Source of the DNA: an uncultured Prevotellaceae bacterium
Lineage (GTDB): Bacteria > Bacteroidota > Bacteroidia > Bacteroidales > Muribaculaceae
Reading direction: 5' to 3'
Length of the DNA: 64,000 nucleotides
Assembly (NCBI GenBank): GCA_900318335.1
Contig: ONKF01000019.1
Location: 1 to 64,000 of the forward strand
Each line of letters begins with the position of its first letter. The first letter of the stretch is position 1. The translations under genes were made by a program, and so were the position numbers. Below the pieces are notes generated by a model that did no database searches, was not told the DNA's origin, and saw nothing but the letters and a program-made list of their open reading frames with translations. Positions 32,646 to 56,544 of this stretch are shown in pieces.

Positions 32646-34505
32646 ATGAAAAAGGTTTTACTTTTAGCCGCAGCCGCACTCATGGTGACGTCTGCCAATG
32701 CGCAACTCAAGCGCTCTGAAACTACCCAGGTTCCTGCCTGTCCTCAGACGCAGCTGTTCAAACCTCAGGCTCAGATGAAGGAAATGCAGATGCGCACTCC
32801 CGGTACTCCCGTTGTCAAGGCCCCCAAGAAGGCTGGTCCCGTCAACATCTGGTATCGTCGTCCCGCTGGTGCTTTCGCAGCAAGTGTTGTAGTTGAGGAT
32901 GGTGCATACGCTGGTATGTACTATGCCCCCTTTATTGCTGTTAAGCCCTATACCGATTATAACTTTAAGGGCTACGTTGAGGGTCAGAGTGCTGATGCCA
33001 CCTATGAGTGGGATGTTCAGTATTGGGGCCTGAATGAAGATGCTACTGACGAGGTTCAGCAGTGGACTACCATCCCTGGTATGGATCTCGACTTCCAGTA
33101 TGGTTATGAGACCGACTCTGTGCCCGTATTCAGAGTAAATCAGGGCAACGGCAAGTTCTATCAGTGGTACATTCATGGTTACGAGATGGCCGGTACATCC
33201 GAGAAGCCCGAGATCGTTGCCGAGCACGCCGGTTCTATCCTGGCTGTTCCCAACACGATGGAGATTTGGGACCGTGACATCCTGAAGTCAAGTAAGACTT
33301 TCTGCTACGGTGGCCGCAATGGTGACCAGCGTTACCCCCTGACTTATTACAGTGGTGCCCTTCCTTACGGCCGCAACGAGAACGGCTGGTGGTTCGGTAA
33401 GAATGGTGGTACCAACGGTGGTGCCCGCATTGACGGTATCGCTCAGGCCTTTGAGAAGCCGACCGCTCCCTATCTGCTCAACCAGGTAGTTGTTGACTGC
33501 GCTGTTCTCGAGGTTACTGCTCCCGTTGACATGACCTGTAAGATCTACAAGCTCGATGAGATTCCTCCCTACGAGGACGAGGACGAGGCTGTTCTGCCCG
33601 ACGAGCCCGGTGAACTCATCGCTATGGGTCGTGCTTCCTTGACCCCCGAGACTGCTGACGTTACCGGTGACCTGATTTTCTTCACCCTCTACGGTGAGGA
33701 GGACGGTCTTGAGTATGACATCACCCCGACCATCGACTGCGCTATCCTCGTGGTTATCGATGGTTACAACGATCCCGAGATGGAGAACCTGAAAGACTTC
33801 TCTGCTCTGATCAGCAGCGATGATATGGTTGACGAGGGCTTCGGTGAGCTCGCTTACCTGAAGTATGGTGTTAACGATGAGGATGGTAACCTTGACCACT
33901 ATGTATGGGCTGGTCTGAACAACTTCTTCTCGAGCGGTGAGATGAAGACTGGTCTGAGCATCTTCCTGAGCACCGAGAACCCCTATCTGACCTTCAACTA
34001 CAATGATGAGGACGGTGAGTACACATTCCCCGCTGAAGGTGGTCTCATGGAGAAGCACTTCGGTAGCAATACTACCCGCAGTATCGAGTTCTGGTCATGG
34101 GTTCCCAGCGCTGATGACGCTTGGTTCATTTCCTGCAACGATGAGGACGTTCCCGATTGGTTGAGCATCGAGCTCACTGACCAGATGAAGGACGGTGAGT
34201 TCACTGGCCTGGTAAATGCTGAGGTTGTTGCTGAGCCCCTGCCCGCTGGCGTTGATTATCGTGAGGCTGTTGTTCGCTTTGAGTTCCCCGGTGCTTATGT
34301 AGATTATAAGTTCATGCAGGGCGAGGGCGTTCCCCCCGTTGTTGGTGACGTGAACGGTGACGGTGAGGTAAGTATTGCTGACGTTAATGCCGCTATCGAC
34401 ATGATTCTGACCGGTACTCAGGCTCCTAACGGTGACGTGAACGGCGACGGTGAGGTAAGTATTGCCGACGTTAACATGATCATCGACATCATCCTGAATA
34501 TGTAA
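32646..34505 (+). CDS. Secreted protein with duplicated dockerin-like C-terminus
   Basis: A 619-residue exported protein with signal peptide MKKVLLLAAAALMVTSANA. The body (about 60-560) is beta-rich and acidic, with no fold I recognise. The end carries two near-identical units, GDVNGDGEVSIADVN at about residues 567-581 and 597-611, each with the DxNxDGxxxxxD calcium-loop pattern of type I dockerin/EF-hand repeats. Such tails are common on secreted proteins of gut Bacteroidales, but no cohesin partner is seen here. The gene follows the susC-operon terminator and precedes its own, so it is a separate unit although it may act with the import system. ATG 32646 is chosen over TTG 32637. Confidence 0.85.
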   Translation: MKKVLLLAAAALMVTSANAQLKRSETTQVPACPQTQLFKPQAQMKEMQMRTPGTPVVKAPKKAGPVNIWYRRPAGAFAASVVVEDGAYAGMYYAPFIAVKPYTDYNFKGYVEGQSADATYEWDVQYWGLNEDATDEVQQWTTIPGMDLDFQYGYETDSVPVFRVNQGNGKFYQWYIHGYEMAGTSEKPEIVAEHAGSILAVPNTMEIWDRDILKSSKTFCYGGRNGDQRYPLTYYSGALPYGRNENGWWFGKNGGTNGGARIDGIAQAFEKPTAPYLLNQVVVDCAVLEVTAPVDMTCKIYKLDEIPPYEDEDEAVLPDEPGELIAMGRASLTPETADVTGDLIFFTLYGEEDGLEYDITPTIDCAILVVIDGYNDPEMENLKDFSALISSDDMVDEGFGELAYLKYGVNDEDGNLDHYVWAGLNNFFSSGEMKTGLSIFLSTENPYLTFNYNDEDGEYTFPAEGGLMEKHFGSNTTRSIEFWSWVPSADDAWFISCNDEDVPDWLSIELTDQMKDGEFTGLVNAEVVAEPLPAGVDYREAVVRFEFPGAYVDYKFMQGEGVPPVVGDVNGDGEVSIADVNAAIDMILTGTQAPNGDVNGDGEVSIADVNMIIDIILNM

Positions 34506-35036: not shown

Positions 35037-35642
35037 ATGAACATCAAATCAGCCGAATATCAAATCAGCAATAGCGATTACCGCAAGTGTCCCGACACCA
35101 AACTGCCCGAGTATGCCTTTATTGGGCGCAGTAACGTGGGCAAGTCTTCGCTCATCAACATGCTCACCGGCCGCAAGGCTCTGGCCAAGACCAGTGCGAC
35201 CCCCGGCAAGACCATGCTCATCAACCACTTCCTCATCAATGGCGAGTGGTACATCGTCGATCTGCCTGGCTATGGCTATGCCAAGCGCAGCAAGGAAAGC
35301 CGTGAGCAACTGTGGCGCATGATTCAGGGTTATGTCCTTGGTCGCGAACAGATGACCAATCTGTTTGTACTTGTAGACAGCCGCATCAAGCCCCAGAAGA
35401 TTGATCTCGAGTTCATGGAATGGCTCGGAGAGCACGGCGTGCCATTCTCCATTGTCTTCACCAAGATGGACAAACTCGGCAAGGTCGCTGGCCCTGCCGC
35501 CGTCGAGGACTATAAGAAGGTGCTGCGCAAGACCTGGGAGGAACTGCCTCCCGTATTCATGACATCGAGCGAGGATGCCCGTGGCCGTGACGAACTGTTG
35601 AACTACATTGATAACATTAACCAGGAATTAAAACAGCAATGA
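35037..35642 (+). CDS. engB: Ribosome-biogenesis GTP-binding protein EngB/YsxC
   Basis: A 201-residue essential GTPase needed for 50S subunit assembly. G1 is [10 protein letters not shown] at about residues 32-41, the switch region [13 protein letters not shown] is present, G3 is DLPGYG, G4 is TKMD and G5 SSED. Length is normal. The ATG at 35037 is chosen because the EngB fold begins with [15 protein letters not shown]; an upstream in-frame extension is not conserved. The gene overlaps the following GH2 gene by four bases (ATGA), an odd pairing of a ribosome factor with a secreted glycosidase. Confidence 0.95.
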
Positions 35643-38044
35643 AAAAGATAGTTATTCTGATGGCTGCCTTAGTAGCCATGACGACTGTAGCGCAGAGTCA
35701 CCGCGAGGTGACGTTGAGTGAAGGCTGGCAGTTCTCCCGTGATAAGGTACAGTGGCAATCGGTAACCGTGCCCCATGACTGGGCCATCGGTGGCCCGTTT
35801 GACAAGAAGTGGGACTTGCAAGTAGTCGCCATCAAGGAGAACGGCGAGGATGTGGCTACCGAGAAGTCGGGCCGCTCTGGCGCGCTGCCCTGGATTGGCA
35901 AGGGCTATTACAAGACCACGTTTACTGTGCCTCAGGGCTTTGGTAATGCAAAACTCATATTTGATGGCGCTATGGCAGACCCCTATGTCTATGTCAATGG
36001 CAAACTCGCGGGGCATTGGGCTTATGGTTACAATGCTTTTATTGTTGATGTCACCCCCTACATGAACACCGACGGCTCAGCCAACACGCTGGAAGTGAGC
36101 CTTGAGAACAAGGAGGAGAGCAACCGCTGGTATCCTGGCGGCGGCATCTATCGTCCCGTCAAGTTGGTGATGACAAGGGACAAGGTCGCCCTCGACACAT
36201 GGGGCTTGTATGTCCGCACACTCAACATCGATGGTGAAAAGGCGTCATTGCAGGTAGAACATCAATTGGATACTGATGCCATTATTGACAACGCTCTCGA
36301 ATTAGAAATCATGCTTACTGATGCTCATGGCGATATGGTGGCTAACACCAAGACACGTCCTGACGGTATGGGTCACTTTTCTTCCCGTTTAGAGGTTTAT
36401 GTGCCCTCGTTGTGGTCTCCCGAGCATCCATATCTCTATACAGTGACCTCTACGCTGCGCCACAAGGGCATCGAAGTGGATCGTCAAAGCACCAAGGTGG
36501 GTATCCGCACTGTCTCGTTCAGCAAGGAGGGTGGTTTCCAGCTCAATGGCATTCGTCGCAGCATCAAGGGCGTGTGTCTGCATCATGACCTTGGCCCGCT
36601 GGGTGCTGCCATCAACAAGACCGCGCTCATCCGCCAAATAGAGATGATGAAGGCCATGGGTGCCGATGCCATCCGCACCAGCCACAATATGCCCTCTACG
36701 ATGCAGATGGAGATTTGCGATAGCCTGGGCATGATGGTGATGGCCGAGAGTTTTGATGGCTGGAAGGAACCCAAGGTGCGCAATGGCTACGGCAGCTATT
36801 GGGACGAGTGGTGGCAGCAGGATATCCGCAACCTGGTGCTCAATCACCGCAACCACCCCAGCATCATCCTGTGGAGCGTGGGCAACGAGATTCCCGAGCA
36901 ATGGAAACCCGAGGGCGTGAAGCGCTACAAGGACCTGATTGCCCTGTGCCACCAGTATGACCCCAGCCGCATGGTGACTTGTGGCATGGACCAAGCCGAC
37001 GGCACCATCTGGTGCGGCTTTGCCCAAGTGGCTGATGTGCCGGGCTATAATTACCGCCTCCACAAGTATGAGGAGATGATTCAGCGCTTGCCGCAGGGCT
37101 TTATCCTGGGCAGCGAGACGGCATCGACCGTCAGCACTCGCGGCCACTACTGTTTCCCCGACACCGTGGCCACCAACAAGGCCTGGCCCGATGGACAGTG
37201 CTCGGGCTACGACGTGGAGTATTGCTGGTGGAGCAACGTGCCCGATGATGACTGGAAGATGCAGGACGACTTCGACTGGACTGTGGGTGAGTTCGTGTGG
37301 ACAGGTTATGACTACCTGGGCGAACCAACCCCCTATGACGAATACTGGCCCTCGCGCAGCAGCTACTTCGGCATCTGCGACTTGGCTGGCCTGCCTAAGG
37401 ACCGCTACTACCTCTACCGCAGCCACTGGAACAAGAATGAGCACACCATCCACCTGTTGCCGCACTGGACATGGCCCGACCGCAAGGGAAAGGTGACGCC
37501 CGTGTATTGTTATACCGACTATCCCAGCGCCGAACTCTTTGTCAACGGTAAGAGCCAGGGACGCATCACCAAGAATGATACTACTCGCTTGGACCGTTAC
37601 CGCCTGCGTTGGCGCAATGTCATCTATCAGCCCGGTGAGTTAAAAGTGGTAGTCTATGATGAAAACGGCAACAAGGCAGGGCAGCAGATTGTCCGCACAG
37701 CCGGCAAACCCAAACGCCTCGTGCTGGAGCCCGAACGCAAGACCATCAAGGCCGACGGCAATGACCTGGCTTATGTCACCGTAAGTCTCGTCGATAAGAA
37801 CGGCACCCTGTGCCCCGATGCTGCCAACCGCCTGCAATTCAGTGTGACAGGAGCAGGTGCCTACAAGGCAGCGTGCAACGGCGATGCCACCTCGCTGGAG
37901 CCGTTCACTCAGCCCCAGATGAGCCTCTTCCACGGCCAGTTGGTAGTCGTCTGCCAAGCCGGTAAAACCCCAGGCGTGATGACCCTCACCGTCAAGGATC
38001 CCGCCACCGGTATGAAATCCACCGTCAACATCAACGTCAAGTAA
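35639..38044 (+). CDS. Glycoside hydrolase family 2 (beta-galactosidase-like)
   Basis: An 801-residue exported glycosidase with signal peptide [20 protein letters not shown]. The order is: sugar-binding domain (about 25-200, with [11 protein letters not shown] and [11 protein letters not shown]), an immunoglobulin-like domain, the TIM barrel (about 300-590) with acid/base Glu417 in SVGNEIPEQ and nucleophile Glu551 in [15 protein letters not shown], a DUF4982-type domain ([12 protein letters not shown]) and a C-terminal bacterial Ig-like domain. It likely releases terminal beta-linked galactose or a related sugar in the periplasm. No SusC/SusD pair is in its operon; its start overlaps the engB stop. 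Confidence 0.94.
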
Positions 38045-38072
38045 AGACACCCGACAACAAATCAAGGAGATG

Positions 38073-38213
38073 TGTCATAATTCGCCTCAGGATTTTCAAT
38101 CGGCCTATCGGCCGAGAAATTAAACAAAATTATTAATAAAATTATAATAAATTATCGTATTGTATTTAATTTTTATACAAATTTTTGTTTAATTTCTCCG
38201 TGCGAAGCACGGA
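38073..38213. repeat. Hairpin-bounded AT-rich intergenic repeat, copy 1
   Basis: Left hairpin CGGCCTATCGGCCG (38101-38114), arm GAGAAATTAAACAAAA, about 55 AT-rich bases, the exactly inverted arm TTTTGTTTAATTTCTC, and right hairpin CCGTGCGAAGCACGG ending about 38212. The same layout recurs at 56361-56498. Here the unit is enclosed by a longer inverted repeat (38068-38084 and 38229-38245, one mismatch in 17). Confidence 0.8.
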
Positions 38214-38266
38214 CATTATTACAAGCTTGAATTATGACACACCTCTGTATTTGTGGTGTAGTCGTT

Positions 38267-39931
38267 TTACTCTTGACTCTTGATATAGTCGAGAAGGAAC
38301 AGGAGTTCGGTGTTCTTGTCAAAGTTGTAATGCTTGTAGTCCTCGTAGGTCGGCATCAGATCGGGTGTGAATTGATGGGCGCGAGGGTCTTCATTTGGCA
38401 TGAACAGTTGCAATGAATTAGAGATATTGCCTTTCAACTTGGTGCGCGGTAGCTCAAACGGAGTCGCTTCCATGTAGGTGTTTGGCGCTTGCTTGCTGGG
38501 CAGTCCTACAACTGTTGCACCCATTTTCCACAGGAAAAACGCATAGTGGAATGCAGCACTGTATGTGGTTGGGTTGATTAATACATACACGTGCTCAGGC
38601 GTATAGACGGGTTTGCCATGTTGTGCCATGATCTTATCTTTGACACTGCTTGCCATTTGCTCAATCATCCTGCCGCGGTACTCATCAGTGATTTCTTCGG
38701 GACTATAGTCATCTTCGCTAGTAGCGATATAGTCGCCCAAGATGAACCCAGAGTCTTGCATCTCGGCATTCATTTCTTCCATAGTGATGTTCATCTTTTT
38801 CATGTACAGGGGGGAGAATAACTGAATGAACTTGATGCCGAATCGAGGAGCCTCTTCGAGGTATTTGTCGCCCCACAACTGGTAAAGTGTGGGAAGGGTG
38901 ATGGGCGTGAAGCCACCGCTGTTGCCTTGTAGGTCGATAATCAGGTTTTTGCTCTTGTTCTTCTTCATTACCTGAAGCATCTTTCCAAATTCATCACTGA
39001 ATGATGGAATCTTGGCCAAGGCCTTATTCACATCGTTAGGCATTTCATCGTCGTTAAATTGCATATATGTCCTCTTGAGATACTGACCGACGTCCATGCC
39101 GAGACTGATCATAATTTCCAACGCATCACGGGATACGATCTGACTTGAGCGGAAGTACATCGTGTTTTTCTTGTCATCAACAAACAGGTAGGACAGATTC
39201 CCTTGGCTGGGGAATGGTTTGGTGTGTTCAACACTGGATAACTCGATATTAGAGCCAGAACCATATTTATTAATGAGAGGAAGAGTCAGATTCATTTGTT
39301 TGCCCTCGGGGGTTTGGAGCAGGAACGTGATGGAATCCTGGCGCATGTCGGGTATCGCTTTTCTTAATTCGTTTGGTGAGAGATCGCTGATAAAACAGAA
39401 GTTGGTAATGCGACCAATTTCGTTCTCGGCAGTATGATATTCTGCTAAATTTGTGCAAATTTCTTTGAGGGGGATGCCCTCGATAGCGATTAATCGACTG
39501 CCTATAAGGTCTTTATATTCTGTCGTGATGGAGCTGATGACAACACCGTCACTAATGGGCCAGAAACCGATGGAGGCCCCCATCTCGGGTTCCCTTTCTT
39601 CAAAAAATGAAGAGAATCCCATGTCAATATTGGTGTGGCCGTCCTCTAAGGGTACCAGGAATTTTGTGATGCGGCGTGCCAGTTCATCGGTGTTGGTTAC
39701 CGAATCCTCGATTAGGCCGAATCGGGTATCCATGGCTTCCAAACGGAAGAAGGGCTTACCGCCATAGTTGGTGTAGGGGTCGGGATGGGTTTCTTCCAGG
39801 AGTCTGATAAATTCGTTGAAGTCTGCCACGATTGAGTCCGTAGGAATCTGTGCGTTGGCGCTGTTAAAAGCCAGCACTGTTGCTAACACGCTGAGCAGGG
39901 ATGCTCGTTGGAAAAATGTTGTAAGTTTCAT
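38267..39931 (-). CDS. Exported S41-family peptidase
   Basis: A 554-residue protein with signal peptide MKLTTFFQRASLLSVLATVLAF ending at SANA. The N-terminal region (about 40-130) has FIRLLEETHPDPYTNYGG and GHTNIDMGF, a tail-protease helper domain; the C-terminal half has LIIDLQGNSGG and the catalytic-serine region PTTYSAAFHYAFFLW followed by ATVVGLPS. This fits the tricorn/C-terminal-processing S41 clan, without a recognisable PDZ domain. The substrate is unknown. The ATG at 39931 begins the signal peptide; the longer start at 39973 does not. It is monocistronic, with repeat copy 1 lying beyond its 3' end. Confidence 0.85.
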   Translation of the reverse strand: MKLTTFFQRASLLSVLATVLAFNSANAQIPTDSIVADFNEFIRLLEETHPDPYTNYGGKPFFRLEAMDTRFGLIEDSVTNTDELARRITKFLVPLEDGHTNIDMGFSSFFEEREPEMGASIGFWPISDGVVISSITTEYKDLIGSRLIAIEGIPLKEICTNLAEYHTAENEIGRITNFCFISDLSPNELRKAIPDMRQDSITFLLQTPEGKQMNLTLPLINKYGSGSNIELSSVEHTKPFPSQGNLSYLFVDDKKNTMYFRSSQIVSRDALEIMISLGMDVGQYLKRTYMQFNDDEMPNDVNKALAKIPSFSDEFGKMLQVMKKNKSKNLIIDLQGNSGGFTPITLPTLYQLWGDKYLEEAPRFGIKFIQLFSPLYMKKMNITMEEMNAEMQDSGFILGDYIATSEDDYSPEEITDEYRGRMIEQMASSVKDKIMAQHGKPVYTPEHVYVLINPTTYSAAFHYAFFLWKMGATVVGLPSKQAPNTYMEATPFELPRTKLKGNISNSLQLFMPNEDPRAHQFTPDLMPTYEDYKHYNFDKNTELLFLLDYIKSQE

Positions 39932-39970
39932 GATCTGTACCGTATTAGTGGTTAGTGGTTTTGATTGGCC

Positions 39971-39978
39971 CAAAATTA
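39971..39978 (-). promoter_or_regulatory. -7 promoter element of the S41 peptidase gene
   Basis: TAATTTTG on the minus strand; the leader would be about 34 nt. Confidence 0.45.
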
Positions 39979-56317: not shown

Positions 56318-56360
56318 GATGGTTCCGGTTGTCTGTTTTCAGTGTTCGTGTTCGCGGGCT

Positions 56361-56498
56361 TGTCAAAATAGGCCTCGTGGTTTTTAATCGGCCTGACGGC
56401 CGAGAAATTAAACAAAATTATAAATAAAATTAAAATAAAAATTTATTTGTTTAATTTTTATACAAATTTTTGCTCAATTTCTCCGTGCGAAGCACGGA
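56361..56498. repeat. Hairpin-bounded AT-rich intergenic repeat, copy 2
   Basis: Same unit as 38073-38213: hairpin CGGCCTGACGGCCG at 56389-56402, arm GAGAAATTAAACAAAA, AT spacer, slightly changed inverted arm ending CAATTTCTC, and hairpin TCCGTGCGAAGCACGGA ending 56498. The left hairpin loop differs (TGAC against TATC) with the stem kept. The outer inverted repeat of copy 1 is absent. Confidence 0.8.
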
Positions 56499-56544
56499 TA
56501 TAAAAACAGACGAGAGACATGGCAAGTCCTCAATATGTTGTGGG

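Follow-up and report, generated by a model that had tools for sequence, protein, structure and literature searches.

An element at positions 38067–38245 of the DNA stretch analysed here (64,000 nt of contig ONKF01000019.1, assembly GCA_900318335.1, from an uncultured Prevotellaceae bacterium; hereafter, the window) is very probably a non-autonomous MITE that carries the ends of an IS1182-family transposon and inserts by replacing a stem-loop, here a terminator-like hairpin. The segment has the attributes of a MITE: it is short, contains no transposase gene, is bounded by terminal repeats and has many dispersed intergenic copies. The original prediction, which was made from the letters of the window, had read it as a MITE, and this reading is borne out by the many copies with common ends, by elements of other genomes in the genus that carry a transposase between such ends, and by orthologous sites that are free of the element.

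Structure of the Focal Element

The inverted repeats, the GC hairpins, the perfect 16-bp arm and the AT-rich centre described in the original prediction are all present (Table 1), and the segment folds beyond chance on both strands (RNA folding z of −8.3 for the plus strand and −8.8 for the minus strand; none of 200 shuffles was equally stable on either strand). The outer inverted repeat (38067–38083 and 38229–38245) is real and 94% complementary over its 17 nt, as had been proposed, except that its left end lies at 38067 rather than 38068. The 140-base stretch that had been described as a separate unit nested within this second repeat is not a unit of its own; in the family copies, it is the outer repeat that forms both termini. 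A 41-nt inner inverted repeat (38114–38154 and 38158–38198) is present at 78%, together with the perfect 16-bp arm (38114–38129 and 38183–38198). When up to three mismatches were allowed, the inner arm was matched seven times in the window, compared with an expectation of 0.43; the outer arm alone gave a weaker signal, with two matches compared with 0.19 expected, a number that was reached by 3 of 100 shuffles. The names given earlier to the two neighbouring genes, GH2 and S41 peptidase, agree with Pfam, in which the S41 match of the 38267..39973 product is short (37.7 bits, residues 321–356).

Table 1. Features of the focal element, its flanks, its neighbouring genes and the second copy in the window.
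Feature	Position	Strand	Remarks
Focal MITE copy	38067-38245		179 bp; no transposase gene
Left terminal inverted repeat, GAGATGTGTCATAATTC	38067..38083	+	family consensus GAGGATGTGTCATAAT
Right terminal inverted repeat, GAATTATGACACACCTC	38229..38245	-	
GC hairpin 1, TCGGCC-tatc-GGCCGA	38100..38115	.	
Inner inverted-repeat arm, GAGAAATTAAACAAAA	38114..38129	+	
AT-rich centre	38130..38182	.	length variable; reduced or missing in some further copies
Inner inverted-repeat arm	38183..38198	-	perfect complement of the GAGAAATTAAACAAAA arm
GC hairpin 2, TCCGTGC-gaa-GCACGGA	38197..38213	.	
Left flank, AACAAATCAAG	38056..38066	.	common to four hairpin-bearing relatives
Right flank, TGTATTTGTG	38246..38255	.	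matches post-hairpin CTTATTTGTG of four relatives
Glycoside hydrolase family 2 (GH2) gene	35639..38044	+	stop codon 22 nt from element
S41-peptidase-like gene	38267..39973	-	convergent with GH2; stop codon 21 nt from element
Second family copy	56354..56531	+	85% identical over query 14-157

Copy Number, Distribution and Placement of the Family

A BLAST search of the 3.15 Mb draft genome (designated G000 in locus labels) located the element at 22 distinct places (E ≤ 2e-6, with the focal copy included and reverse matches at one place counted once), rather than at just the two copies that the original prediction had named as evidence against mobility. A paired-end search of the sampled loci of this genome identified 36 elements with paired terminal inverted repeats, which range from 30 to 353 bp and some of which are weak; together with the 10 of the 22 BLAST places that lie outside these 36, a total of 46 places was obtained. 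The sequence GAGGNTGTGTCANAAT was matched 73 times genome-wide at up to two mismatches (38 forward, 35 reverse), and its reversed control once. The second copy in the window is located between an AIR-synthase-like gene and a gene of the phosphorylase superfamily.

The family consensus runs from GAGGATGTGTCATAAT to ATTATGACACATCCTC and encloses two GC hairpins, inner GAAATTAAAC arms and an AT-rich centre; full-length copies are about 180 bp long with 16-bp ends, and some copies measure only 30–48 nt. Within one mismatch, the 16-bp end GAGGATGTGTCATAAT is found in 44 of 61 genomes of the genus, including this one (the control matches once overall), and the exact 24-base core occurs in 24 stretches of the named genome collection, all of which are titled uncultured Prevotellaceae or Bacteroidales. 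A distant-mode search of plasmid and phage collections returned no match to the element at E ≤ 0.001.

A stop codon faces the element at a distance of 50 nt or less in 28 of the 36 paired elements, compared with 18% of random points in the intergenic regions of the window; 11 of the 36 have convergent neighbours (null 20%) and 2 have divergent ones (null 27%), where the null was derived from the 35 intergenic gaps of the window only, with genes called by a purpose-written codon-usage script.

Replacement of Hairpins at Orthologous Sites

At the focal site, the relatives G083, G048, G019 and G024 read AACAAATCAAG-GAGGCAACCagaataagtatGGTTGCCTC-CTTATTTGTG and this genome reads AACAAATCAAG-[element]-TGTATTTGTG; in this alignment, the terminator-like hairpin of the four relatives is lost and the element stands in its place. 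The junction is near-exact: it is offset by one base (an A that faces a C in the outer stem), and its right edge carries two substitutions. Among the 29 non-self loci in the matches listed, these four showed both flanks and a short gap, and all four carry the hairpin; the others comprise G021 with a 657-nt gap, 23 loci in which the left flank alone aligned, and one in which neither flank did.

The same exchange was observed for transposase-bearing insertion sequences (ISs) with these ends. At L262, G037 reads ATTTTAAA-[IS]-TTTTTTAATTTTG, compared with ATTTTAAA-GCTTGGCTGatttaCAGCCAAGC-TTTATTAATTTTG in G036 (14 of 15 flank bases identical on each side), and at L263, G069 reads GACGACGGAC-[IS]-CTACATGTTACC, compared with GACGACGGAC-GGGCAGAATaaATTCTGCCC-CTACATGTTACC in G016 (15 of 15 on each side). 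Of the six IS copies inspected, these two show a two-sided swap, two show one swap edge only (L261, compared with a paralogous site of its own genome, and L256, compared with three genomes), and L255 and L257 were uninformative. The hairpin targeted at L256 falls within a 167-codon open reading frame, and thus the IS targets hairpins rather than terminators as such.

Two-flank swaps of the MITE were further identified at C10:1891 (against G083 and G048), C21:80464 (G048 and G024), L329 (G041, G094 and G097) and L325 (G068, G017, G007 and G009); at C50:7042, the left edge and the stem match, giving one edge. The swaps at L325 and L329 came from 15 queried MITE sites, six of which had loci to inspect; of these, L324 and L342 have the element in the relative as well, L327 gave one hairpin with poorer flanks, and L340 aligned on the left flank only. 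An automated edge search recovered the expected edges at the focal site, at C10 and at both IS sites, was one base off at L329 and at L325 (against G068), and gave poor edges at C50:7042 and at C21:80464. In the set of comparisons from which the C21:80464 swap came, many aligned on one flank only. Two-flank sequence comparison at two IS and five MITE sites indicates replacement of a stem-loop of the IS1272 type, without target site duplication. At C10:1891–2025, as well as in L177, L179 and L181, the core of the element is oriented one way in this genome and in G021 and the opposite way in G024 and G025, so that the element either entered one target more than once or was inverted between its ends.

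Target Site Duplications, Flanks and Lost Hairpins

The original prediction had anticipated target duplications, but direct repeats of at least 3 nt flank 2 of 53 elements, compared with 1.04 expected from re-paired flanks, and a hairpin is replaced instead; the target site duplication of a canonical MITE is absent in the family. The 53 elements comprise 34 from this genome, 15 from relatives and 4 ISs, after 2 of the 36 elements of this genome (300 bp or more) and 2 of the 17 from relatives had been left out. When the first six flank bases were compared side against side, 133 of 318 were complementary, compared with 105.6 (sd 7.1) in shuffles, none of 2000 of which reached this number; the complementary flanks are read as the foot of the lost hairpin.

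Orthologous sites were compared wherever both flanks scored above 75 and the gap measured 0–220 nt, with the first locus taken per site and genome. From 19 sites in addition to the focal one, 14 sites yielded 55 two-flank comparisons, in which a hairpin (at the lenient threshold of −10 kcal/mol or better) was present in 42, the element in 5 and neither in 8. Among the 50 element-free comparisons, shuffled gaps gave an expectation of 20.4 hairpins, as opposed to the 42 observed. The eight comparisons without a strong hairpin are both of those at C42:87920, two of eight at C30:143818, two at C53:21635, and one each at C34:66523 and C58:4127, and simple insertion may have occurred in these cases.

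The Probable IS1182-Family Partner and Its Remnants

The Pfam domain DUF772 (PF05598) was detected in 16 of 101 genomes of the genus, this genome not being among them. Of the 21 DUF772 loci, 12 have an end that differs from GAGGNTGTGTCATAAT by no more than one mismatch, and both ends with a transposase frame between them are present at four (L255, L261, L262 and L263), of which L261 has its transposase split over two frames. The transposases of L263 and L255 scored 456 and 451 bits, respectively, against the NCBIfam IS1182 model NF033551 (cut-off 270). Several IS copies have ends that are palindromes in their own right, of 30 nt on the left (GAGGGTGTGTCATAATTCTGGCACACCCTC in L263) and of 35 nt on the right (L255, L256 and L262). 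Another IS1182 element is L265 (324 bits), whose ends, GAGGGTGTTGCAAAAC, resemble those of a MITE in L126.

A search of this draft genome with NF033551 gave no match; a truncated IS remnant was found from C22:25111 to about 25412, which consists of the left palindrome and some 290 bp and is 73% identical over 79 residues to the start of the transposase. The ends of the MITE thus correspond to those of autonomous elements, namely the IS1182 elements of the same genus and the remnant in this genome. From the comparisons between genomes we infer that the family has been mobile; IS1182 itself is seen in this genome only as the truncated remnant. Draft assemblies lose IS1182 repeats, as exemplified by G003, which is outside the 16 DUF772-positive genomes and in which both stretches that were read end inside IS ends at contig edges.

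Several short elements resemble single IS ends: the 30-nt elements at C22:26723–26752 and C22:25111–25140 resemble the left-end palindrome, the latter being the end of the IS remnant, and the 35-nt elements at C21:83503–83537 and C27:105951–105985 resemble the right-end palindrome. Those at C22:26723–26752, C21:83503–83537 and C27:105951–105985 may be solo IS ends. A candidate autonomous copy within paired ends in G058 was rejected, as each span of 1.6–1.8 kb proved to consist of two separate short copies.

Alternative Explanations

It is very unlikely that no transposase is now involved and that palindromes with common short stems swap 3′ hairpins through recombination or template switching. 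Such a process would fit the outer stem bases that the element and a relative's hairpin sometimes share (at the focal site, GGAG..CTC), the GTGGA on the left that is common to C50:7042 and G021, and the covariation of the outer arms, which in 12 aligned copies amounts to 13 double-change cells compared with 5.3 in shuffles; however, the transposase-bearing ISs swap likewise, the stems that were lost (GCTTGGCTG and GGGCAGAAT) are unlike the IS ends, and conservation of the 16-bp end among the genomes of the genus fits binding by a transposase. The covariation, the strong folding of both strands and the position after stop codons would also suit a structured RNA or terminator family of non-mobile origin that is under selection, a view made extremely improbable by the presence or absence of the element and the opposite orientation of its core at orthologous sites, and by the ends that it has in common with transposase-bearing elements. 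Moreover, Rfam at the gathering threshold returned one tRNA only in the window and no match on the element, and the six matches of a permissive scan of 38000–38320, all below gathering (four microRNA families, Yfr11 and MicA), are taken as chance. Selection for RNA pairing as the sole cause of the arm covariation is weakened, since the outer stem bases and flanks can derive from the replaced host hairpin; the covariation may reflect in part inherited host stems and in part upkeep of the stem.

REP/BIME elements, which are associated with RAYTs, are extragenic palindromes, as are the members of this family. Movement of a REP/BIME-like element by a REP-associated tyrosine transposase, which the original prediction had offered as an alternative together with a transposase search, would agree with the palindromic structure, with the location at gene 3′ ends and with the copies of 30–48 nt, and this genome has five Y1_Tnp (PF01797) matches. 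We nevertheless give this origin almost no credence: full copies are about 180 bp long, and the REP/BIME reading is unsupported because the 16-bp ends belong to an IS1182-family transposon. Canonical insertion of an IS1182 element or MITE that creates a target duplication, after which the duplicate and the hairpin are deleted, is in turn highly improbable. In its favour, direct repeats are described for MITEPye1, an IS1182-type MITE of Paracoccus yeei, in the available text (PMC11578231), but duplications do not exceed chance among the 53 elements of the present family, and the edges fall at or near hairpin edges at the two IS and five MITE sites.

Proposed Mechanism of Stem-Loop Replacement

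For the preferred reading, a MITE with IS1182 ends that replaces stem-loops, an IS1182 transposase acting in trans would recognise both the ends of the MITE and a target stem-loop. The element would then be joined at the feet of the stem-loop, which is lost; this outcome is seen in the site comparisons, and the chemistry is presumed to follow the IS1272 model. Insertion gives rise to no target duplication. Copies lie mostly just after stop codons, so that the element would stand in for a terminator-like hairpin. At the focal site, it would provide the two convergent genes with a putative bidirectional terminator or 3′-end hairpin, composed of its own 16-bp outer stem and the host flanking tracts, which are kept, and it probably still works in this way; a terminator scan of the window did not include the focal element in its output. 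That the element alters how the GH2 and S41 mRNAs end is plausible, because it lies exactly at the site of the terminator-like hairpin of the relatives. Later internal deletions would shorten the copies, as the length variants suggest, and some short copies align to single IS-end palindromes.

A broader proposal, to which we give slightly less than even credence, is that the family is a terminator-swapping parasite whose hairpin-forming body replaces 3′-end hairpins and shrinks to a bare hairpin, renewing terminators rather than destroying them. If so, IS1182-type transposition would drive much of the rapid turnover of 3′-end hairpins between species of the genus. The results are also a warning that conserved, covarying 3′ hairpins can be mobile DNA and not selected RNA families.

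Relationship to Known Systems

Stem-loop-replacing transposition in the IS1182 family is already known from IS1272 in Staphylococcus, according to the available text of two studies (PMC5678879; PMC4923244). IS1272 has 16-bp ends and replaces stem-loops without duplication, some of its targets are not inverted repeats, and it has been proposed to be joined to the 3′ feet of a cruciform, whose stem-loops are then removed (Wan et al., 2017, PMC5678879, as far as the text is available). The present family resembles it in its 16-bp ends (their model A), in the lack of duplication, in the replacement of a stem-loop and in targets that are unrelated in sequence, and differs in that IS1272 is a full IS of Staphylococcus with some non-hairpin targets, whereas the elements here are non-autonomous, about 30–200 bp long, and found in Bacteroidales beside IS copies with palindromic ends (PMC5678879, available text). 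TnSha1/IS1272 was described as targeting hairpins, several of which are terminators, and as deleting the stem-loop bluntly; a single target received insertions in either orientation, and one target lies in a coding region (Furi et al., 2016, PMC4923244, in the portion available); the hairpin targets and deleted stem-loops are as in the present family, but TnSha1 is a gene-carrying Staphylococcus element, not a MITE. MITEPye1 is similar to the family in its IS1182-like ends, its mostly intergenic location and a long predicted RNA stem-loop, but reportedly has 1–3 chromosomal copies and carries its direct repeats at the borders (PMC11578231, available text).

Porphyromonas is another genus of the Bacteroidales. 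Its element BrickBuilt, in P. gingivalis, is likewise a MITE, intergenic and in some cases near predicted terminators, but has other ends, internal 23-nt tandem repeats and target duplications in three of four two-ended copies (PMC4596501, in the portion available). The word IS1182 is absent from the available text of a review of prokaryotic MITEs (PMC10969869), and no report of a stem-loop-replacing MITE, or of such transposition in Bacteroidales, was found among the matches listed, with ISfinder and most subscription papers lying outside the coverage. A populous family of stem-loop-replacing MITEs, in Bacteroidales, looks new. The IS1272-type outcome is seen here in Bacteroidales, where IS copies occur alongside the numerous MITEs and several sites are known in their pre-insertion state, which makes both the swapping of hairpins by a DDE transposase without duplication and the possible mobile supply of new transcription terminators to bacterial genes directly testable.

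Further Palindromes and Repeats

L126 and L178 contain a similar core (GC hairpin, GAAATTAAA arms and AT-rich centre) within quite different outer ends, and the core seems to be shared between MITE families with differing termini. Another class of 3′-end palindromes, with TTAGGTTTTAGG-like repeats, occurs at orthologous sites of relatives in L196, L200 and L207. In L243 (G089 C4:50540–51000), which is orthologous to C42:87920, a palindrome GGGGGACGGTGTCATCATTA...TAATGATGACACAGTCCCC resembles the ends of the family yet is distinct from them. In the window, two 44-nt direct repeats (95%) at 34344–34474, at the end of the 32637–34505 gene, presumably encode dockerin-like repeats. Finally, positions 48–1516 of L040 (G000 C27:104470–107485) hold a CRISPR array in which GTCGCACCCCCCGTGGGTGCGTGGATTGAAAC is repeated at least 22 times; a palindrome of 35 nt that is similar to the right end of IS1182 starts 34 nt past the last repeat, at the expected start of the next CRISPR repeat, which is itself a hairpin.
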